Below, piece by piece: positions 4,422 through 14,212 of a stretch of 64,000 nucleotides of DNA. The stretch's first letter is position 1; every line of letters begins with the position of its first letter. This stretch comes from Sediminicoccus rosea (GTDB taxonomy: Bacteria; Pseudomonadota; Alphaproteobacteria; Acetobacterales; Acetobacteraceae): assembly GCF_033547095.1 (NCBI RefSeq), contig NZ_CP137852.1, positions 4,427,001 to 4,491,000 on the forward strand. The letters are read 5' to 3'. The notes beneath the pieces are model-generated. The model did not search any database. It saw only the letters and a program-made list of their open reading frames with translations, and was not told where the DNA came from. A program made the translations under genes and the position numbers.

Positions 4422-5750
4422 CTACCGGATACCGACCAATTGGCGGATCAGCCTGCGGGCGAAGCCAGATTGCGGCCGGTCGAAGAGCCGCGCCAGGGAC
4501 CAGCGCCCATTCCGCATGCGCGCGCGCGGGTTGCTGAACTCGCGGAACCCCGCCTCCCCATTGCGCCGCCCGAAGCCGGAGGCGCCGACGCCGCCGAAGC
4601 CCAGGCCCGGCAGCGCCGCGTATTCCACCGCGCGCCCGGTCACCAGCGCGCCGGATTTGGTCTGCGCCGCCACCTGCGCTTCCTCGGCCGCATCCGCGCC
4701 GAAGAGGTAGATCGCCAGCGGATGCGGCCGCGCACGCACCCAATCCAGCGCCAGCTGCAGCGTGGCGCATTCCTCCATGGCGAGGATGGGTCCGAAGATC
4801 TCTTCCTCCGCCAGGCGCCCGGTCGCGAGGGCGAGCCCCACCGAATGCGGCCCAGGTGCCATCCACGCGATGGTGGCGCCCTCGCTGATCGCATCCAGCC
4901 GCGCCTGCTGGCGCGCGTTGATCACCGCGGTGCCGGTCTCGCTCACGCCGCTCTCGCGCGCGGCGCGGGCGAAATCGGCGGCGCTGTGGCCGATGAGCAG
5001 GACGGTGTCGGGGGCGATGCAGGTCTGTCCCGCATTCACCGCCTTGGCCACCAGGATGTCGCGCGCGGCGCGCTTGAGGTCGGCGCCGGGCAGCACCAGC
5101 GCGGGGCATTTCCCACCCAGCTCCAGCGTCAGCGGCGTGAGGTTCGGCGCGGCGGCGGCCATCACCTTGCGGCCGATCTCGGTGCCGCCGGTGAAGACCA
5201 GGTGGTCCCAGGGCTGGCGCGCGAAATCCTGCGCCACATCGGGCCCGCCCTGCACGACCAGCGCGATGCGCGGCCCCCAGGCCTCGGCCAGGATGGTCTC
5301 GATCAGCGCCGCCACGCGTGGCGCCGCTTCCGAAGGCTTGATGACCACGCGGTTCCCGGCGGCGATGGCGTCGAGCGCGGGCATGAGCGCCAGCTGCACG
5401 GGATAGTTCCAGGGCGCCATGATGCCGATGACGCCCTTGGGGACATGCTCCACCCAGGCGCGGGCGGGGAAGAAGGGAAAGGGCACGGCCGCGCGCCGGG
5501 GCCGCGCCCAGCCGCGCAGCTTGCGGCGCGAATAGGCGCAGGCATCGGCGATGAGCAGCACATCGGCCAGCAGCGTGTCCTCCGCGCACCGCGCGCCGTA
5601 ATCCGCGGCGGCGGCCTCGGCGATGGCGGCCGCGTGCTTCAGCACCACGCGGCGCAGATCGGCCAGCAATTCGCGCCGGCGCGCGACATCGGGCACGCCC
5701 TCCTCCGCCTCCACGGCGCGCAGCGCGGCAAGGGCTTCGGCGGGGCTCAT
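4422..5750 (-). CDS. Aldehyde dehydrogenase of the carotenoid cluster
   Basis: 442 aa NAD(P)-dependent aldehyde dehydrogenase. Visible landmarks are MAPWNYPVQL (cofactor loop), VIKPSEAAP, FTGGTEIGRKV, the Glu in LTLELGGKCP, the nucleophilic Cys in NAGQTCIAPD, and EEIFGPILA. The shorter C-terminus with FGRRNGEAGFREFSNPR resembles coniferyl-aldehyde/fatty-aldehyde type enzymes. C30 carotenoid pathways (for example diaponeurosporenal dehydrogenase) use an ALDH of this kind to make a terminal carboxylate. The ATG at 5750 overlaps the hpnE stop (ATGA), supporting this start and co-expression. The substrate as diapocarotenal is inference from context. Confidence 0.88.
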   Translation of the reverse strand: MSPAEALAALRAVEAEEGVPDVARRRELLADLRRVVLKHAAAIAEAAAADYGARCAEDTLLADVLLIADACAYSRRKLRGWARPRRAAVPFPFFPARAWVEHVPKGVIGIMAPWNYPVQLALMPALDAIAAGNRVVIKPSEAAPRVAALIETILAEAWGPRIALVVQGGPDVAQDFARQPWDHLVFTGGTEIGRKVMAAAAPNLTPLTLELGGKCPALVLPGADLKRAARDILVAKAVNAGQTCIAPDTVLLIGHSAADFARAARESGVSETGTAVINARQQARLDAISEGATIAWMAPGPHSVGLALATGRLAEEEIFGPILAMEECATLQLALDWVRARPHPLAIYLFGADAAEEAQVAAQTKSGALVTGRAVEYAALPGLGFGGVGASGFGRRNGEAGFREFSNPRARMRNGRWSLARLFDRPQSGFARRLIRQLVGIR

Positions 5751-6961
5751 CGCAGGATCTCCCGTGCGGCGGCCTGGCCGGAGCAGATGGCGGCTTCGAT
5801 GGTCGCGGGCAGGTCGGGCCAGGTCCAATCGCCGGCGAGCGCAAGATTGGCGAGCGGCCGGCGCGGCGGTGCGGGAATCGGCCCGGGGCGCTGGCGCGGC
5901 GTGGCGCGGCGCTCCTTGATGACGCGGCAGGGCGGCGGAGCGAGCGGCCAGTCGCCCGGCAGATGGAAGGCGCGCACGGCGGCCAGGATCTCGGCCCAGG
6001 CGCGCGGCGCCAGCTCCTCCACATCCTGCTCGGCCTCGGCATCGCCCGCGCTGACGGTGACGGCGACGCCCTCGGGCCGCACCAGCACCCATTGGCAGAG
6101 CGCGCCCAGCAGTCCGAGGAAGCGCACCTCGCCGCCCGGCTGGAAGGCGAAATGCAGGTTCACGATGGGCGCAAAGGCATCGGGCGCAGGCAGGCCCGGC
6201 AGCATGCGCGTGGCCTCCCAGGGCGGCAGGGCGAGCACGACACGATCCGCGGCACCCAGCATCACATCCTGGTCCTGGAAGGTCAGGCTGGTGGCACGCC
6301 CCTCCCTCACCTGGATGGCGCGCAGCCGGCTGCCGGGGCTGTATTCCGCGCCGGCCGTGGCGAGCACCGCGAGTGCGGGTTCCACCAGATCCGGCCCCAG
6401 GCCGCGGCTCGCCACGAAGAGGCGCGCGGCACCCGGCGCGCCGAGCTTCCGCAGCACCTGCCCCAGGCGGCGCGTCGAGGCCTCGGCGGAGGGCGTGTTC
6501 AGCGCCGCGATCACGAGCGGATCCACGAAGCCGCGCAGGAAGGCGGGGTGCGCCGCCATGGCCTCGGCGATGGTGCGGTCCTTGAAGGGCAGCGCCATGG
6601 CCATCATCGCCAGGACGCCGCCCCAGGAGACGCCCGCCGGCCGCCGCGCCCCGTTCCACCAGCCGGCGGGCGAGAGGGCGACAAGGCGCGAGGAGCCATC
6701 GGCGCAGTCATGGACAGGCAGGCCACCCGGCTCGGGTTGCACCCAATATTGCCGCGCGCCAATGGCATCGAGGAAGCCGAGCGCCGCCGTGTTGCAGCCG
6801 ATCAGCGCATGGGTGCCGTTGTCGGTGCCGTCCGGCAGCGCGCGCGCGCGGCCACCCGCGCCCGGCGTCGCCTCGTGCAGCGTGACGGCCTGGCCCTGGG
6901 TGGCGAGCGCATGGGCGGCGGCGAGGCCGGCCATGCCGGCGCCGATCACATGGATGGTCAT
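5747..6961 (-). CDS. hpnE: Hydroxysqualene dehydroxylase HpnE
   Basis: 404 aa FAD-dependent amine-oxidase-fold protein. The N-terminal dinucleotide motif is HVIGAGMAGLAAAHALA, followed by a GAGGRARAL segment, and the C-terminus has the FAD-closing block LALAGDWTWPDLPATIEAAICSGQAAA. HpnE reduces hydroxysqualene to squalene as the third step after HpnC and HpnD. The start was placed at 6961 because this ATG overlaps the HpnC-HpnD fusion stop (ATGA) and the FAD motif begins immediately. The downstream ATGA with the ALDH indicates one operon. The hpnC-hpnD-hpnE order is the known bacterial squalene route. Confidence 0.92.
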   Translation of the reverse strand: MTIHVIGAGMAGLAAAHALATQGQAVTLHEATPGAGGRARALPDGTDNGTHALIGCNTAALGFLDAIGARQYWVQPEPGGLPVHDCADGSSRLVALSPAGWWNGARRPAGVSWGGVLAMMAMALPFKDRTIAEAMAAHPAFLRGFVDPLVIAALNTPSAEASTRRLGQVLRKLGAPGAARLFVASRGLGPDLVEPALAVLATAGAEYSPGSRLRAIQVREGRATSLTFQDQDVMLGAADRVVLALPPWEATRMLPGLPAPDAFAPIVNLHFAFQPGGEVRFLGLLGALCQWVLVRPEGVAVTVSAGDAEAEQDVEELAPRAWAEILAAVRAFHLPGDWPLAPPPCRVIKERRATPRQRPGPIPAPPRRPLANLALAGDWTWPDLPATIEAAICSGQAAAREILR

Positions 6962-8583
6962 CGGCCGGTCACCGCGAAGACCGCCATGCGGAACTTCTCG
7001 GCGCGAGTCATCCGCGCGCGCGGCCGCTCGCCCGACCAGCCGCGCCGCAGCATGTGGTCGAGGATGCGGCGATAGCCCCACATCATCACGCGCGCCGGGC
7101 GCAGCGCCTCGATGTCGTAGCGCGGCAATTCGGCCTCGGCGCGGAAGAAGCCGGCGACGGCGCGGCCGGCCAGTTCCTTGCAGATGCCCGCGAAGGCCGG
7201 GTGCGTCACGATGGAACGCGCCGGGCCATCCGGGATGCCGGCCTTCTCCAGCACGGAGAGCGGGATGTAGACGCGGTCCCGCGCTGCGTCCTCATCCACG
7301 TCGCGCAGGATGTTCGTCAGCTGGAAGGTGTGGCCCAGCGCCAGCCCCCAGGCCTCGGCCCTCGGCTCGCCGAAGATGCGGACCGACATGGCGCCCACGC
7401 TGCCGGCGACGCGGCGGCAATAGAGATCGAGCGCCGCCTCGTCGGGCAGGCGCAGATGGTCGGCCGCGTCGGTCTCCATGCCGGCCACCATCGCCTCGCA
7501 TTCGGCGAGCGGGATCTCGAAGGCCTCGCGCGCCAACAGCAATTCGCGCGAGAGGGCGCAATCCGGCACAGTCAGCTTGGCGCGCCAGGCATCGAGCAGG
7601 CGGCGCTTCTCGCCTTCCGGCATGGCGCCATCGGCGATGTCGTCCACCACGCGGCAGAAGCCATAGACGGCCCAGAGCGCGCGGCGGCGCTCGCCCTTCA
7701 GCGTCGCCATGCCGCGCGCGAAGGAAGAGCCGGCACGGCTGACGCGATCGGCGACCAGCACCGGATCATGCGGGCCGAGCAGCGGGGCCGCCACCAGCTC
7801 CCGCGCGAAATCGAGCTTGCCGAGGGCGACACGCCCCAGCACCGGATCGGCCGCGCGCAGCTTCCCGAGCAGACGGCGGGCCAGGCCAATGGTCATGGCC
7901 GACTGGATGGCGAGCCGCCGCGCGGTGCAGAGGCGCGGCAGGGCGCTTGCGCGGTCCAGCAGATCCTCCACGCGGTCCAGCGCGGCATCCAGGATTTCGC
8001 GGCGCTTCGGATTGGCCGGCTCGAAGAAGGCCGCTTCGCCGCCGGCCAGCGCCAGCCAGGATTGCGGCAGATAGACGCGGTCCAGCTTCTCGCGATCCGG
8101 CACCAGGTCCTGCAGGTGGTTCAGGATCTGCAGGGCGGTGCAGAGCCCGTCCGCGGCCTGCTTGGCGGCATCGGCCGTGGTGCCATGCAGGCGCAGCAGC
8201 ATGCGGCCCACCGGGTCCGCGCTGCGGCGGCAGTAATCCTCGAGGTCGGGCCATTCGGCATAGCGCGCCTGCTCGGAATCCTGCCGGAAGGCGGAGAGCA
8301 TGAGCCGCGCTTCCTCGACGCCGACGCCCTCGGCCTGCATCCGGGCGCCCTCGGCGATCGGGGTCGCCGGATCGTCCAGCGAGGCCTCCATCGCATCGAG
8401 CCGGGCGAGCTTCTCGGCGGGGCTGAGGCTCTCGCTGTCGGCGATGTCATCCGCCATGCGGACGAAGCGGTAGAAGGCCATGACCTTCGCCCGCACCGGC
8501 TTCGCCAGGATCAGCGAGGCGGTGGGGAAGTTCTCCGTGTCATGGGTGCGGTTGGGCGCACCGGGCGCGGTGACATCATTCAT
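6958..8583 (-). CDS. Fused squalene synthase HpnC-HpnD (presqualene/hydroxysqualene synthase)
   Basis: 541 aa containing two complete trans-isoprenyl diphosphate synthase domains in one frame. Domain 1 (about 1-265, HpnC-like) has DTENFPTASLILAK, the first Asp-rich motif DDIAD at 45-49 and the second in NHLQDLVPDREKLDRVYLP. Domain 2 (about 268-541, HpnD-like) starts at SRAGSSFARGM, with DDIAD at 314-318 and LTNILRDVDEDAARDRVYIP. Known reactions: HpnD condenses two farnesyl diphosphates to presqualene diphosphate and HpnC converts that to hydroxysqualene. These are normally separate genes of about 280-290 aa. No stop or frame change is seen between the halves. It is first of the hpnCD-hpnE-aldH-SDR unit. 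Its start has an AAAGG site. Confidence 0.93.
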   Translation of the reverse strand: MNDVTAPGAPNRTHDTENFPTASLILAKPVRAKVMAFYRFVRMADDIADSESLSPAEKLARLDAMEASLDDPATPIAEGARMQAEGVGVEEARLMLSAFRQDSEQARYAEWPDLEDYCRRSADPVGRMLLRLHGTTADAAKQAADGLCTALQILNHLQDLVPDREKLDRVYLPQSWLALAGGEAAFFEPANPKRREILDAALDRVEDLLDRASALPRLCTARRLAIQSAMTIGLARRLLGKLRAADPVLGRVALGKLDFARELVAAPLLGPHDPVLVADRVSRAGSSFARGMATLKGERRRALWAVYGFCRVVDDIADGAMPEGEKRRLLDAWRAKLTVPDCALSRELLLAREAFEIPLAECEAMVAGMETDAADHLRLPDEAALDLYCRRVAGSVGAMSVRIFGEPRAEAWGLALGHTFQLTNILRDVDEDAARDRVYIPLSVLEKAGIPDGPARSIVTHPAFAGICKELAGRAVAGFFRAEAELPRYDIEALRPARVMMWGYRRILDHMLRRGWSGERPRARMTRAEKFRMAVFAVTGR

Positions 8584-8720
8584 GCTGCCTTTGTGGCTTG
8601 TGTCGCGCGCGCTTTCCAGCCCATGCCGGACGATTGGCGCCGCCGATCCGCGCGAGAGGCACCATCCGCTTGCCGCGCGGCCCGCCCCCCGGCCAGGTTG
8701 CGCGCAGCACGGAGGCCCCC

Positions 8721-9128
8721 ATGAGACCCCTGATCCTGACCGCCCTCGCCAGCACGATGACCCTGCCCGCCACCGCCCAAGGCTTCTTCACCTGGCCCTC
8801 CACCCGCGTCACCGTCACGCAGCAATCGGGGAATGCCTGCCAGCCCTCCATCCTGTCGGTCTCGGGCACACCGGGCGGGCGATACCTCCAGATCCTGGTC
8901 AACGCACCGGTGGATGGCAGTTTCACCGCCACGCTGGAGGTCAACTGGCGCCATGGCAACGAGGTGCTGCGCTATCGTGGCGGCCAGAACCTGCCGCGCG
9001 GCACTGGCAGCATCAGCGTCTCCGGCCCCGCGCTGCCGGCCAATCTCGCGGACGGCACGATTGAGCTGTCGGTGGTCTATTGCGCCGTCTATCCGCGCAC
9101 CGCGCCGCCACCGGGCGCGATCATGTAG
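8721..9128 (+). CDS. Small secreted protein of unknown function
   Basis: 135 aa. The ATG at 8721 has a GGAGG site 6 bases upstream and begins a clear signal peptide (MRPLILTALASTMTLPATA, cleavage probably after ATAQ). The mature part is about 113 residues, beta-rich in appearance, with one Cys early (SGNACQP) and one late (VVYCAVY) that could form a disulfide, and ends PRTAPPPGAIM. I do not recognise a family. It lies on the opposite strand between the two halves of the carotenoid cluster, divergent from hpnCD and converging on the glycosyltransferase with only 3 bases between stops. A periplasmic or extracellular location is inferred. Confidence 0.75.
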   Translation: MRPLILTALASTMTLPATAQGFFTWPSTRVTVTQQSGNACQPSILSVSGTPGGRYLQILVNAPVDGSFTATLEVNWRHGNEVLRYRGGQNLPRGTGSISVSGPALPANLADGTIELSVVYCAVYPRTAPPPGAIM

Positions 9129-9131
9129 CCC

Positions 9132-10232
9132 TCAGCCCTCGGCCTTGGCCGCCGCATAGGCCCGGCCCTTCCAGCCCGCCTTCAACCCGAGGGCCGAGCG
9201 CACCAGCGCCGTCCATTGGATGGCCAGCGCCACCAGCACCGTCAGCGGGTGCAGCGGCACCGTCCACCAGGGCTCGCCCGTGCGCCAGGTGACGGCGGCG
9301 CGCAGCGCGAACATCAGGCAGATGGTCAGTACGGCCTCTATGTCTGGAAGCAGCGCCCAGGGCCAAAGATGGGCGCCGGCCAGCAGCACGGTCCAGATCG
9401 GCAGGCCGACGGGCGTCGCCATGCCTTCCCGCGCATTCTTGATGAAGCCGCCCCAGGCATGGCTGAAATTGTCATACATCCGGCAGGTGGCGAGCGGCGT
9501 GCCATCCACGATTTCCGTGTCATGCCCGTTCTCGCGAAAGCGGCGTGCGAGCGCGATGCCGTCATGAAGCACGCCCTTGATGGCCGCATGGCCGCCGATG
9601 GCCTCATAGGCCCGCCGCTCGACCAGGATGAGCTGGCCGCAGGCGGCCGCGAGGCTCGCCTTGCGCTGCACCGCCCGGCCGCCGAAGGGCAGGTAGCAGA
9701 TCAGCAGGAAGTTGATGAAGGGCACGGTCAGCCCCTCACCGATGCTGCGGATGATCTGGCGCGGCACGCCGCTGACCATGGCGATCTTGTGCGTGGCGCT
9801 ATGCGCGGCCATCGCGGCCGCGGCGTGCGGCGCGAGGCGCACATCGGCATCGATGAACAGCAGGTGAGTGCCCGTCGCGGCCTCGGCCAGGCGGGCGCAG
9901 GCATGGACCTTGCCGGTCCAGCCCGGCGGCAGGCTCGGCGCCTGGACGAGCCGCACCCGCGCGTCGCGGGCGGCATAGGATTGCACGATCGCGGCCGTCG
10001 AATCCGTGCTGCCGTCATCCATCACCACCACTTCGACCTCGCAGCCGGTGGAGGCGAGCGCGGCATCGAGGCAGGCCGCGATGTTGCCCGCCTCGTTGCG
10101 GGCCGGGATCAGGATGGAGACGCGCGTGCCGGCCGGCGGCGTGCTGCGCAGCCGCGGCATGCGGCGGAGATTGATGATTCCGAAGATGATGGGCAGCAGT
10201 GCGAGTGCCAGGGCGATATGGGCGAATTCCAT
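9132..10232 (-). CDS. Family 2 glycosyltransferase of the carotenoid cluster (CrtQ-like)
   Basis: 366 aa membrane-bound GT-A glycosyltransferase. An N-terminal hydrophobic helix (MEFAHIALALALLPIIFG) is followed by VSILIPARNEAGNIAACLDA, the nucleotide-binding VVMDDGSTDST, the metal-binding DAD in LFIDADVRL, and a late Gln/Arg-rich acceptor region; two or three C-terminal hydrophobic segments follow. The start at 10232 lies one base after the acyltransferase stop. In C30 carotenoid clusters a GT2 and an acyltransferase together attach an acylated sugar to the carboxylated carotenoid. That role is inferred from the neighbours. Confidence 0.87.
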   Translation of the reverse strand: MEFAHIALALALLPIIFGIINLRRMPRLRSTPPAGTRVSILIPARNEAGNIAACLDAALASTGCEVEVVVMDDGSTDSTAAIVQSYAARDARVRLVQAPSLPPGWTGKVHACARLAEAATGTHLLFIDADVRLAPHAAAAMAAHSATHKIAMVSGVPRQIIRSIGEGLTVPFINFLLICYLPFGGRAVQRKASLAAACGQLILVERRAYEAIGGHAAIKGVLHDGIALARRFRENGHDTEIVDGTPLATCRMYDNFSHAWGGFIKNAREGMATPVGLPIWTVLLAGAHLWPWALLPDIEAVLTICLMFALRAAVTWRTGEPWWTVPLHPLTVLVALAIQWTALVRSALGLKAGWKGRAYAAAKAEG

Positions 10233-10233
10233 C

Positions 10234-11064
10234 CTAGCCTCGCTTCTCCCCTTGCCGCGCCCCAGGCTGGGTCCGTGTGTCATGGCGCGGGTCATGCGCC
10301 TCTCCGCGCATGACAGCCCTGATATATTGCCAGGCGCCGTAAATTCCACCCATGCCGGCACGTCCGTCCAGCACAATGCGGAACCGTTCCGCATCCCGGC
10401 TGATCGCATCCTGGGCCAGGCGGTCCATCGTTTCGGTCATGGCGGCGCGGATCGTCTCGGTCCGCGTGTCACGATCCTCGGCCAGCAGGGCACGGGCATC
10501 GAGCGGCGTGCCGAAGGCGAGCAGTGCCTCGCCGCGCTTTTCCGTCCAGTGGACGTATTCGAGGGCAAGCGGCACCAGCACCGCATCGGGCGCGATCTCG
10601 GGCAGGCGTGTGACGCCGGGGGCGAGCGGCACCGGCCGCTCCCGCGCATCGGCGAAGCGGCCGGGCGCGTTCATCCAGAGCATGTGGCGCGGATCCTCCA
10701 GCGCCTGCTTCGCCGTCTGCAGGAAGCGCACCGCGCCCCGCGCCGAATTCTGCTCGACGCCGAAGACGCCGAGCCGCTTCATGAAGGGGTATTTCTCCAG
10801 CGCCGCCGCATCCATCGGCGTGAAGCCGGGCCGCTCCAGGAAGAAGCGGCGCATGAGCAGCATGAACATCACGCCGTCCCACCAGCCCGGGTGGTTGGCG
10901 AGGATGATGGCCGGCCGCCCCTCGGGCAGCTGCGGCTCCCCCCAATGGGCGACGCGCAGCGCCGAGAAATGGCCGGCGAAGGTGCGGCTGAAGGCGATGT
11001 TGAAGAACGCCATCATCCGCTCAGAACGGAGCTGGACCGGCGAAGGCGGCGCCTCCGTCGCCAT
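10234..11064 (-). CDS. PlsC-type acyltransferase of the carotenoid cluster (CrtO-like)
   Basis: 276 aa. The acyltransferase signature H-x4-D is seen in ILANHPGWWDG at about residues 55-65, with a degenerate second block (FMKRLGVFGVEQNSARGA) and a third around MNAPGRFADARERP in place of the common EGTRS. No strong transmembrane segment is visible. It lies between the desaturases and the glycosyltransferase with gaps of 5 bases and 1 base. Such enzymes in C30 pathways esterify the carotenoid glycoside with a fatty acid. The assignment to carotenoid tailoring rather than phospholipid synthesis rests on the operon. Confidence 0.85.
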   Translation of the reverse strand: MATEAPPSPVQLRSERMMAFFNIAFSRTFAGHFSALRVAHWGEPQLPEGRPAIILANHPGWWDGVMFMLLMRRFFLERPGFTPMDAAALEKYPFMKRLGVFGVEQNSARGAVRFLQTAKQALEDPRHMLWMNAPGRFADARERPVPLAPGVTRLPEIAPDAVLVPLALEYVHWTEKRGEALLAFGTPLDARALLAEDRDTRTETIRAAMTETMDRLAQDAISRDAERFRIVLDGRAGMGGIYGAWQYIRAVMRGEAHDPRHDTRTQPGARQGEKRG

Positions 11065-11069
11065 GATGC

Positions 11070-12656
11070 TCAGGCGCCGATGAGTTCGGACTCGCGCCGG
11101 CCGGCCAGTTCCGCCTCCGGGCTCATGCCGCGGCCGCCCAGATCCTGGTCGAGGCTGTCGGCCGCGATCCAGCCGGACATCATCACCATCGGCATGCCGG
11201 GGCCCGGATGCGCCGCGCCGCCGGCAAGGTAGAGTCCCTTCACCTGGCGCGAGCGGTTGCCCGGCTTGAAGGCGCCGAGGAAGGAGCCGTGCGAGGCGAG
11301 GCCATAGATGGCGCCATCCAGCACGCGGTAGCGGTTGTGGATGTCCACCGGCGTCAGGCGCTGCTCGACCACGATGTTCTCCTCGATATCGTCGAGGCCT
11401 GCCGTGCGCTTCAGCTTGTCCAGGATCTTCTGGCGATAGCCGGGGAAGATCTCGTTCCAGTCGTGATGCGGGCGCAGATGCGGCGTGTGGACGAGGGCGT
11501 AGAGCGCCTCGCCGCCCGGGGGCGCGCTGGTCGGGTCGGTCTCGGCCGTCGCCGCCAGATAGACGGTGGGGTCCGGCGCGGGCTCGCCCTTCTTGTAGAT
11601 CGCGTCGAACTCTTCCTCCGCATCGCGGGAGAAGACGAAGCAGTGATGCGCGAGGTGCGGGTAGCGCTTCTTCAGGCCCATGTAGAGCACGACGCCGCTG
11701 CAGGCCGGCTCGAAGCCCTTCTTCGCGTAGGTGTCGCCCGCCGTGCCGCCGACCAGCTCCTTGTAGGTGCGGATCGCGTCCATGTTGGAGATCACGGCAT
11801 CGCAGGCGATGCGCTCGCCGCTCGCGAGCTTCACGGCGACGACCTTGCCGTTCTCGATGTCGAAGCCCGTCACGTCGCTGCTGGGGCGCAGGTCGGCGCC
11901 GAGTTCGCCGGCCAGCTTCGCCAGCCCCTCGGCCACGGCGCGGGTGCCGCCCACCGGATACCAGACGCCCTCGCTCGCCTGCATATCGCCGATGGAGGCG
12001 AGCACGGCCGGCGCCAGATAGGGGTTGGAGCCGACGTACTGGCAGTAGTGGTCCAGCATCTGCGCCAGGCGCTCATCCGGGACATTCCCCCGGATCACCT
12101 TGGCGACCGTCTGGCCCATGCGCAGGCTCAGCACATCCTTCAGCGTGTTCGGGTTGAGGTTGGCGCGCATGTTCAGCGTGTCGCCGATGCCCTCGACCGA
12201 CTTCCAGAAGAAGAACTTCTCGGAGACGCCGTGCAGGTGCTTGGCCAGCCGCTGGAACTTGCGGTAGCCGTCGCCCAGGCCCTTGCCCGGCGCGAAATCC
12301 TCCATGGCCTTCGCCATGACGTCCACATCGGCCATCAGGTCGATGCGGCTGCCATCCTCGAAGAAGCAGCGCCACTGCGGGTCGAGGCGGATCAGCGGCA
12401 ACTCCTTCGCCTGATCGCGCCCCGCCTCGGCATAGATGCGGCGCAGCACACGCGGCACGGTGAGGATGGTGGGGCCCATGTCGAAACGGAACTTGCCGCT
12501 GCCATCCGGCGCATCCAGGAAGAGCTGCGCGGCCTTGCCGCCGAGCCAGGGGTTCTTGTCCAGCAGCGTGACCTTGTGGCCGCGCGCGGCCGCGGTGCAG
12601 GCGGCGGCAAGGCCGCCGAGGCCGGCGCCGACAACGACAACATGGGACATGTTCAA
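11070..12656 (-). CDS. CrtI/CrtN-family carotenoid desaturase or oxidase
   Basis: 528 aa FAD enzyme with VVVVGAGLGGLAAACTAAARGH at the N-terminus, FDMGPTILTVPRVL, a YPVGGTRAVAEGLAKLA block (the family's pattern V-G-G-x3-[AV]) and the C-terminal AGGAAHPGPGMPMVMMSG-WIAADSL motif. It overlaps the other desaturase by ATGA. C30 clusters usually carry two such paralogs, one introducing double bones into diapophytoene or squalene (CrtN) and one oxidising the terminal methyl (CrtP/CrtNb). Which role this copy has cannot be read from sequence alone. The next enzyme, an aldehyde dehydrogenase, fits with one copy producing an aldehyde. Confidence 0.9.
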   Translation of the reverse strand: MNMSHVVVVGAGLGGLAAACTAAARGHKVTLLDKNPWLGGKAAQLFLDAPDGSGKFRFDMGPTILTVPRVLRRIYAEAGRDQAKELPLIRLDPQWRCFFEDGSRIDLMADVDVMAKAMEDFAPGKGLGDGYRKFQRLAKHLHGVSEKFFFWKSVEGIGDTLNMRANLNPNTLKDVLSLRMGQTVAKVIRGNVPDERLAQMLDHYCQYVGSNPYLAPAVLASIGDMQASEGVWYPVGGTRAVAEGLAKLAGELGADLRPSSDVTGFDIENGKVVAVKLASGERIACDAVISNMDAIRTYKELVGGTAGDTYAKKGFEPACSGVVLYMGLKKRYPHLAHHCFVFSRDAEEEFDAIYKKGEPAPDPTVYLAATAETDPTSAPPGGEALYALVHTPHLRPHHDWNEIFPGYRQKILDKLKRTAGLDDIEENIVVEQRLTPVDIHNRYRVLDGAIYGLASHGSFLGAFKPGNRSRQVKGLYLAGGAAHPGPGMPMVMMSGWIAADSLDQDLGGRGMSPEAELAGRRESELIGA

Positions 12657-14212
12657 GCCTCCGTGGCGGGCGCGAGGGCGGGCTCCGCCGTCAGCGCCAA
12701 GTCTTGCTGGATGAGGCGCGAGGTGATGCGCGCCCCCTCGTAGATCACCGGCAGGCCGGAGCCCGGATGCGTGCCGCCGCCCACCAGGTAGAAGCCCTGC
12801 GTGTCGTTGAAGCGGTTGCGTGGCCGGAAGCTCAGCATCTGCATCAGGTCATGGCTGAGGTTGAAGGTGGCGCCGAAGCCCACCGAGAACTCATCCTGCC
12901 AATCCTGCGGTGAGACCATCCGCTCGTAGCGGATGCGGGATTCGATATCGTGCAGCCCCAGCACCTTCAGGCGCTGGATCGCGATGTCGCGGTAGCGCGG
13001 GCCCTCCACGCTCCAATCCGCGCCATGGCGCAGGTTGGGCACGGGCACCAGCATGTAGAGCGCGGCATGGCCGGGGGGGGCGAGGCTCGGATCCGTCACG
13101 CAGGGGTTCTGGATGTAGAGGCTCGGCACGTCTGGCAGTTCGCCGCTTTCGATCTGCTTGATGTTGCGCTGGTATTCCTCGGCCAGCAGCACGTTGTGGT
13201 GCGAGAGCTCCGGATAGGTGCCCTCGATGCCGAGGTAGAGCATGAAGGTCGAGCAGGAGTAGCGCGACTTCTCGATCTTCTGGTCGGACCAGGCCTTGCG
13301 GATGGAATTGGGCACGAGCTTCGGCACGGCGTGCGCGAAGTCGCCGTTGAGCACGACGGCATCGGCCGAGATGTGCTGCCCGCCGACCTCGACGCCGACG
13401 GCGCGGCGCCCGGCGAAGGTCACCTTCTCCACCGGCGTGTCCAGGCGGATCTCGACGCCGAGCCGCTCGGCCACGCGGGCCATGGCGTCGCTCACCGCGC
13501 CGCAGCCACCCACCGGGTGGTACACGCCGTATTCGTATTCCAGGAAGCTCAGGATCGTGAACAGCGAGGGGCACTTGAAGGGCGACATGCCCAGGTATTT
13601 CGTCTGGAAGCTGAAGGCGAGCCGTGTGCGCGGATCCTTGAAGTAGCGCTTCAGGTCCTGGTCCACCTGCCGGTGCGGACGCAGCTGCGGCAGGCTCTTC
13701 AGGATGTCGGCACCGACCATGTCGGTCGTGTTCAGGAAGGGCCGCTCCAGGAAGGGGCGGAAGACCGCGAGCTTCTCGCGGTTGTCGGTCATGAAGCGGC
13801 GGATGCCCGCCACATCGCCCGGCGCGAAGCTGCCGATGTTGCGCTCCATCTGCGCGAGGTCGCCCGTCGCGTCGATGGTGATGTTGGGCTGCCCCTCGAA
13901 GATCAGGCGGTATTGCGGGTCGAGGCGGATCAGCTCCACCTCGTCCTGCAGCTTGGCGCCGCAGGCCGCGAAGATCTCCTCCAGGATGCGCGGATAGAGG
14001 AAGAAGGTCGGCCCCAGGTCGAACTTGTAGCCCTCGGGCGAGGTCAGCGTGCGGGTGCGCCCCCCCACCACCCCGTCCTTCTCGAACAAGGTCACCCGTG
14101 CGCCGGAGGCCGCCAGCTGCATCGCGGCGGCGAGCCCTCCGGGCCCCGCCCCGATGACGGCAACATGAGGGCGCGAGCGGCGGACCGAAGGGGAGGAGAG
14201 AGGTGCGTTCAT
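12653..14212 (-). CDS. crtN: Diapophytoene/squalene desaturase-type CrtN
   Basis: 519 aa CrtI-family FAD desaturase: VAVIGAGPGGLAAAMQLAASGARVTLFEKD, KFDLGPTFFLYPRILEEIF, VYHPVGGCGAVSDAMARVAERLG and the C-terminal GGGTHPGSGLPVIYEGARI. It is the first gene of the desaturase-desaturase-acyltransferase-glycosyltransferase unit. No phytoene synthase (crtB) is present in the window, whereas a squalene route is, so a C30 substrate is likely. The ATG at 14212 has only a weak CAGG upstream and a TATACA 7 bases before it. No alternative in-frame start precedes the FAD motif. The symbol is tentative; crtI-like is the safe family name. Confidence 0.9.
   Translation of the reverse strand: MNAPLSSPSVRRSRPHVAVIGAGPGGLAAAMQLAASGARVTLFEKDGVVGGRTRTLTSPEGYKFDLGPTFFLYPRILEEIFAACGAKLQDEVELIRLDPQYRLIFEGQPNITIDATGDLAQMERNIGSFAPGDVAGIRRFMTDNREKLAVFRPFLERPFLNTTDMVGADILKSLPQLRPHRQVDQDLKRYFKDPRTRLAFSFQTKYLGMSPFKCPSLFTILSFLEYEYGVYHPVGGCGAVSDAMARVAERLGVEIRLDTPVEKVTFAGRRAVGVEVGGQHISADAVVLNGDFAHAVPKLVPNSIRKAWSDQKIEKSRYSCSTFMLYLGIEGTYPELSHHNVLLAEEYQRNIKQIESGELPDVPSLYIQNPCVTDPSLAPPGHAALYMLVPVPNLRHGADWSVEGPRYRDIAIQRLKVLGLHDIESRIRYERMVSPQDWQDEFSVGFGATFNLSHDLMQMLSFRPRNRFNDTQGFYLVGGGTHPGSGLPVIYEGARITSRLIQQDLALTAEPALAPATEA

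Follow-up and report, generated by a model that had tools for sequence, protein, structure and literature searches.

Why would two enzymes of squalene synthesis, HpnC and HpnD, be joined in one gene inside a carotenoid cluster, and which pathway does the joined enzyme serve? The question is raised by a 64,000-nt stretch of the chromosome of Sediminicoccus rosea (Acetobacteraceae; NZ_CP137852.1, positions 4,427,001 to 4,491,000), hereafter the window, in which a preliminary description had proposed that one uninterrupted 541-codon frame (6958..8583) encodes both enzymes. We recovered exactly this single open frame, with its ATG at 8583 and its stop at 6958, on the minus strand, which had gone unstated. 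Our analysis of the gene, of its relatives and of the genomes that carry them suggests, with a probability of about 0.85, that HpnCD is a two-domain enzyme which, together with HpnE, supplies squalene to both the carotenoid and the hopanoid pathways.

The two halves of HpnCD

The Pfam scan of the HpnCD protein returned two SQS_PSY stretches, and the NCBIfam models arranged them as HpnC first (residues 13-266) and HpnD second (residues 281-535), within a single gene roughly twice as long as usual. The whole protein passed the cut-offs of HpnC (TIGR03464, 311.4 bits relative to 250.45) and HpnD (TIGR03465, 322.9 bits relative to 278.6), both of these sums taking in the two halves. Scored alone, the N-terminal half reached 226.9 bits with HpnC (cut-off 250.45; next family 99.9) and the C-terminal half 232.9 bits with HpnD (cut-off 278.6; next family 93.8), such that each half stands below its cut-off but exceeds the next-best family by over 120 bits. 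We then placed both halves in a tree of 42 rows (18 HpnC, 20 HpnD and four CrtB-like rows as outgroup). The N-terminal half fell in the HpnC clade (support 100/100) and the C-terminal half in the HpnD clade (100/98); each clade was recovered in 100% of 200 bootstrap trees and both stand apart from the CrtB-like rows. The proposed fusion of HpnC and HpnD is confirmed. The two DDIAD motifs (residues 45-49 and 314-318) were also found as described, each accompanied by a second Asp-rich motif (NHLQDLVPD and NILRDVDED, respectively), and both motifs of each half were kept in all 30 family fusions examined.

Codon comparisons with six relatives showed the third position to be the most divergent in all six cases, in each half as well as across the junction, where the excess was narrow in one of them. 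This pattern and the full-length fused frames of relatives rule out a chance open reading frame in GC-rich DNA. We also considered that the gene might yield two products, the full-length protein and an HpnD started separately at an internal codon. The window gene does have a GTG at residue 264 preceded by GGGAG, and among 27 fusion genes GTG codons are common at residues 248 (20 genes), 252 (12), 277 (19) and 281 (17). However, GTG at residue 264 does not reach 8 of these 27 genes, the window gene lacks a GTG at residues 252, 277 and 281 as well as any ATG in residues 251-286, and GTG presumably encodes valine frequently in genes this rich in GC. Separate initiation of HpnD is therefore very unlikely.

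Distribution of the fusion

We searched an even sample of 299 genomes of the family, 272 of which presented a match. The fusion was found in at least 66 of them: 63 full-length copies and two copies cut by contig ends, which share at least 59% identity and which we refer to as the clade type (65 genomes, about 27 assigned by tree and the remainder by identity), and the distinct fusion of genome G001 (44% identity). Full-length fused frames, including that of the window, therefore occur in 64 of the 299 genomes, a count that fusions reported as two matches, such as the one of Acetobacter sacchari, escape. A scan of named genomes gave 587 loci, and among the best 80 there were 18 with both halves in one frame. 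Holders of the fusion within a carotenoid cluster include Roseococcus pinisoli, a Rubritepida genome, Roseomonas nepalensis, Pseudoroseomonas coralli M0104 and Roseomonas sp. E05. Of 381 genomes from elsewhere in the class, at least 13 carry both halves in one frame. One further candidate (G440; locus L091, 5772-7553) was rejected as a fusion and left uncounted: its hpnC and hpnD are two adjacent genes, in frame, with a single TAA between them. This arrangement likely gives a picture of how HpnCD fusions start.

In quick trees built for each half, 30 family fusions formed one clade (support 96), which was joined by the fusions of Microvirga (98 and 99 in the two trees) and then by Inquilinus-type fusions (98 and 98). 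The same fusion in 65 genomes of the family and this grouping leave practically no room for a sequencing or assembly error that joined two neighbouring genes, an explanation already refuted by the full-length single frames in 64 of the 299 genomes; such frames are also carried by isolates with species names, among them Roseococcus pinisoli and Roseomonas nepalensis. A stop codon or shift of frame near the junction, which had been put forward as an observation that would overturn the proposal, is likewise excluded by the full-length single frames of relatives.

Squalene genes and hopene cyclase loci in fusion genomes

The fused gene was the only HpnC or HpnD found in the window genome, and the neighbouring hpnE was its only HpnE-family match (E up to 1e-30, 58 of 96 candidates scored). 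Two other genes of this genome were rejected as a hidden HpnC or HpnD: one SQS_PSY gene is nearest to a phytoene synthase model (412.7 bits against a cut-off of 500) and another, at C1:3199771-3200454, gave no NCBIfam match at E up to 1e-10. We ran the HpnC profile on 35 genomes (six of the separate type and 29 with the fusion, the latter drawn from the 65 clade-type genomes) and detected a single HpnC place in all 35. The other matches to this profile were HpnD genes, the second half of the fusion or 14 further genes scoring 108-149 bits; the window genome's own such gene, the one nearest to the phytoene synthase model, and one of genome G168 fell outside HpnC and HpnD in the 42-row tree, and the other 12 were classed as CrtB-like solely from their scores and frame lengths. 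None of the 65 clade-type genomes showed a stand-alone HpnC, with up to four candidates scored per genome, the second matches of seven genomes resolved and all candidates scored in 12 of the 65. HpnE was likewise single in all 16 genomes searched for it (E up to 1e-30, 58 of the 65-102 candidates scored in each).

The window genome presents one hopene cyclase, located about 2.6 Mb from hpnCD and adjoining hpnB, and no match to hpnC, hpnD or hpnE was found in the surrounding 20 kb. Because the cyclase locus is devoid of these three genes, both pathways of this genome are probably supplied by the fused gene. The same pattern was observed at 20 cyclase loci fetched from fusion genomes (18 of the family and two from outside, 11.7-20 kb each), none of which presented hpnC, hpnD or hpnE and 19 of which presented hpnB. 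A hopene cyclase was found in 47 of the 65 clade-type genomes. The genome of Roseococcus pinisoli (G680) carries two.

By the reactions attributed to HpnD, HpnC and HpnE (Pan et al. 2015, as summarised in PMC5462960), three HpnDCE steps lead to squalene, of which HpnCD would catalyze the first two. Its C-terminal half (HpnD) would convert two farnesyl diphosphates into presqualene diphosphate, its N-terminal half (HpnC) would turn this intermediate into hydroxysqualene, and HpnE, encoded by the overlapping next gene, would produce squalene. The squalene of this lone HpnC/HpnD/HpnE set found in the organism would then probably be drawn into C30 carotenoids by the products of the adjoining desaturase, aldehyde dehydrogenase, glycosyltransferase and acyltransferase genes, and into hopanoids by the squalene-hopene cyclase at the distant locus. 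The analysis demonstrates the fusion, its motifs, the phylogeny of its domains, the content and order of the genes and their complementary presence; from these we infer the enzymatic activities, a sharing of squalene (on the basis of gene content) and a tether that would be helpful and non-obligatory.

Several observations weigh against this explanation. Neither half of HpnCD alone nor the HpnE of the window attains its NCBIfam cut-off, which marks a divergent lineage with a putative product; in profile searches, the HpnC domain was below the HpnC cut-off in all 29 fusion genomes. Since no hopene cyclase was found in 18 of the 65 clade-type genomes, the dual role would be possible only in the cyclase-bearing ones. 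The surroundings of the cyclase were read in 26 of the 53 fusion genomes that carry one, G001 not counted, and many of the genomes are drafts in which absences could be gaps. The cyclase-free genomes belong to genera g102, g95, g29, g6 and g87, plus single genomes of g72 and g17; they contrast with the statement in PMC8776678 that proteins for hopanoid synthesis are encoded by every strain of Acetobacteraceae. Automatic naming may overlook this lineage, because HpnE and both lone halves score below the NCBIfam cut-offs.

Complementary gene content of carotenoid and hopanoid clusters

Several relatives divide the squalene genes differently between the two clusters. Pseudoroseomonas coralli M0104 (G162), Roseomonas sp. 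E05 (G205) and genome G202 present hpnB-hpnD-hpnE-cyclase, devoid of hpnC, at the hopanoid locus and hpnCD, devoid of hpnE, in the carotenoid cluster. Their stand-alone HpnD proteins have the expected motifs and score 330.9, 329.9 and 315.4 bits, respectively (cut-off 278.6). No stand-alone HpnC was found in these three genomes, in which all candidates were scored, and their only HpnC is the one in the fusion. In genomes G102, G159 and G236, hpnC-hpnD-hpnE are located in the hopanoid operon and the carotenoid cluster lacks both hpnCD and hpnE. Genome G016 shows yet another split, its hopanoid operon containing hpnC-hpnD and its carotenoid cluster hpnE. Finally, separate-type relatives such as L098-L100, L157-L159 and L161 present the complete order hpnB-hpnC-hpnD-hpnE-cyclase.

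The simplest reading of this gene content is a shared squalene supply, whose genes would be kept about once and in either cluster. We further consider it rather likely that the squalene genes behave as a swappable module for two pathways, with one HpnC and one HpnE per genome in varied splits, and that the fused HpnCD stepwise replaced the copies of the hopanoid operon. The hpnC and hpnD of the hopanoid operons in genera g4, g17 and g29 group with Hyphomicrobiales; because of this grouping, these operons were probably acquired by transfer. The hopanoid-operon hpnC and hpnD of some Roseomonas-type genomes (L151, L152, L153 and L156-L161) show this grouping with Hyphomicrobiales. We found no report of complementary loss between carotenoid and hopanoid clusters in the open-access literature, subscription papers being mostly outside this search.

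Recurrent origin and the role of the tether

We then used a concatenated tree of 46 chosen rows to trace the joining of HpnC and HpnD. At least four changes between the fused and the separate states were required, and a history with a single change was found in none of 200 bootstrap trees, which rules out a single origin of all fusions on this tree. The 46 rows omit f26, f114, f28, f76, L242 and the sequences of Omnitrophota, Tectomicrobia and Cytophagales, which are long-branched or partial fusions of unsure placement; such trees count changes of state, fusion and splitting being indistinguishable from them alone. The fusions of Acetobacter sacchari (L239), G001 (L035) and G401 (L090) were placed among separate genes and are located in hopanoid operons, and the fusion lies close to the cyclase in G401, G504, G572 and G001. 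The expectation that the fusion might be confined to carotenoid clusters is refuted by these hopanoid-operon fusions. The changes in the tree and the placement of these fusions among separate genes indicate that HpnC and HpnD have been joined several times, without a tie to carotenoids.

Recurrent joining bears on what the tether contributes. The preliminary description had suggested channelling of presqualene diphosphate, which the HpnD site would pass directly to the HpnC site so that little of it is free. The repeated changes of state speak for this idea, as does the spacing of just 14 residues between the two profile matches. On the other hand, close relatives appear to use the fusion or separate HpnC and HpnD interchangeably, and G162, G205 and G202 keep a stand-alone HpnD, such that presqualene diphosphate from outside can presumably reach the HpnC of the fusion. 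An obligate channel implies that both activities are present in one protein only; we found instead the extra HpnD above the cut-off in these three genomes and separate genes replacing the fusion in G102, G159, G236 and G016. The stand-alone HpnD could be spare. If it works, the presqualene diphosphate that it makes has to come to the fusion's HpnC half from elsewhere. A stand-alone HpnD beside a fusion-only HpnC argues against obligate channelling and leaves room for a benefit of proximity, and overall we regard channelling as unlikely. There is about an even chance that the fusion provides co-expression and equal dosage only, along with inheritance with the carotenoid cluster, and confers no kinetic advantage. 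The 4-nt overlaps of hpnCD with hpnE and of hpnE with the aldehyde dehydrogenase gene fit this explanation, as does the presence of one HpnC and one HpnE per checked genome wherever they are encoded; recurrent joining hints at an advantage, although the adjacency of the two genes makes fusion likely anyway. Eukaryotic squalene synthase also takes farnesyl diphosphate past presqualene diphosphate in one polypeptide; it does so in one domain with reduction by NADPH, whereas the window enzyme has two domains and a separate HpnE.

The carotenoid cluster around hpnCD

The genes around hpnCD lie on the same strand (Table 1), with des2, des1, the acyltransferase and the glycosyltransferase upstream and hpnE and the aldehyde dehydrogenase downstream. 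The ATG of hpnE overlaps the stop of hpnCD by 4 nt (ATGA). Two CrtI-family desaturases, an aldehyde dehydrogenase, a glycosyltransferase and an acyltransferase beside the squalene genes make up the set known for the squalene-based synthesis of C30 carotenoids. By its gene content, this is a typical squalene-route C30 carotenoid cluster, as had been anticipated for the surroundings of hpnCD and hpnE. A 176-aa frame on the plus strand (8598-9128), between the crtQ-like gene and hpnCD, presents a signal-peptide-like stretch by eye and gave no Pfam or NCBIfam match at E up to 0.001.

Table 1. Features of the hpnCD locus, in window coordinates.
Feature	Coordinates	Strand	Evidence and remarks
Aldehyde dehydrogenase, aldH-like	4422..5750	minus	PF00171; 4-nt overlap with hpnE
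hpnE, hydroxysqualene dehydroxylase-like	5747..6961	minus	TIGR03467, 256.1 bits, below cut-off 283.05
hpnCD fusion gene	6958..8583	minus	541 aa; HpnC-like residues 13-266, HpnD-like 281-535, junction about 251-286
HpnD half, residues 271-541	6961..7773	minus	DDIAD 314-318, NILRDVDED 424-432
HpnC half, residues 1-270	7774..8583	minus	DDIAD 45-49, NHLQDLVPD 155-163
Family 2 glycosyltransferase, crtQ-like	9132..10232	minus	Profile matches; resembles HpnB/CruG too
Acyltransferase, crtO-like	10234..11064	minus	PF01553
des1, CrtI-family carotenoid desaturase/oxidase, crtN/crtP-type	11070..12650	minus	TIGR02734, 386.5 bits (score of the frame 11070-12656)
des2, CrtI-family carotenoid desaturase/oxidase, crtN/crtP-type	12653..14212	minus	TIGR02734, 532.4 bits

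The desaturase des1 was present in 62 of the 65 clade-type fusion genomes (E up to 1e-150) and in 10 of 80 separate-type genomes (E up to 1e-100). These 80 were chosen from 206 and include ten picked as close relatives or odd cases, four of which account for des1 matches. In the fusion genomes, des1 was on the contig of the fusion in 57 of the 62 cases and elsewhere in three (G005, G059 and G262); the linkage was hidden by contig ends in G090 and G120. Outside the family, two Microvirga genomes presented an identical gene order around the fusion, and no hopene cyclase was found in these two genomes.

Comparison with known systems

The HpnCD fusion as such is of a known kind, because fused hpnCD, including an alphaproteobacterial case, has already been described (PMC5462960). 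HpnC and HpnD are known as separate proteins, as the preliminary description stated, but not always: that 2017 study reported fused genes for Acidobacteria, Actinobacteria and Alphaproteobacteria, naming as holders subdivision 2 Acidobacteria, Actinopolyspora, Blastococcus saxobsidens and Rhodospirillum centenum. As in those descriptions, a single gene of roughly twice the ordinary size encodes both HpnC and HpnD. The earlier fusions were described in a study of hopanoids, whereas the window gene is located in a carotenoid cluster, apart from the cyclase. It shares families, motifs and clades with the separate HpnC, HpnD and HpnE (Pan et al. 2015 via PMC5462960), from which it differs in forming one polypeptide rather than two and in lone halves that score below the NCBIfam cut-offs.

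The gene types hpnCDE, crtN, crtP, crtQ, crtO and aldH are also those described for Methylobacterium extorquens (PMC10448405) and Azospirillum brasilense (PMC13274349). According to these sources, hpnCDE and crt are at different loci in both species, whereas hpnCD and hpnE lie inside the crt cluster in the window; hpnC and hpnD are separate genes in M. extorquens (PMC10448405) and fused here. The carotenoid cluster of Palleronia sp. LCG004 is described as containing crtIP and hpnCD (PMC11638410) and similarly associates hpnC/hpnD with carotenoid genes, the description leaving unsaid whether 'hpnCD' denotes a fusion or is shorthand. For acidophilic Acetobacteraceae, the squalene genes of the hopanoid pathway are reported to be unclustered, with one or more typically missing (PMC8776678).

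Implications

What this group adds to the known fusions is a hopanoid locus without squalene genes of its own, which seems to depend on a fused enzyme encoded in the pigment cluster. Because the squalene genes sit in that cluster, genome surveys confined to the surroundings of the hopene cyclase would call the pathway incomplete. If the squalene genes do form a swappable module, the genomes with a fused HpnCD and an extra HpnD would constitute a natural test of whether presqualene diphosphate moves freely between proteins. The fusion genomes with a stand-alone HpnD would offer ready-made strains for the question of presqualene diphosphate channelling.

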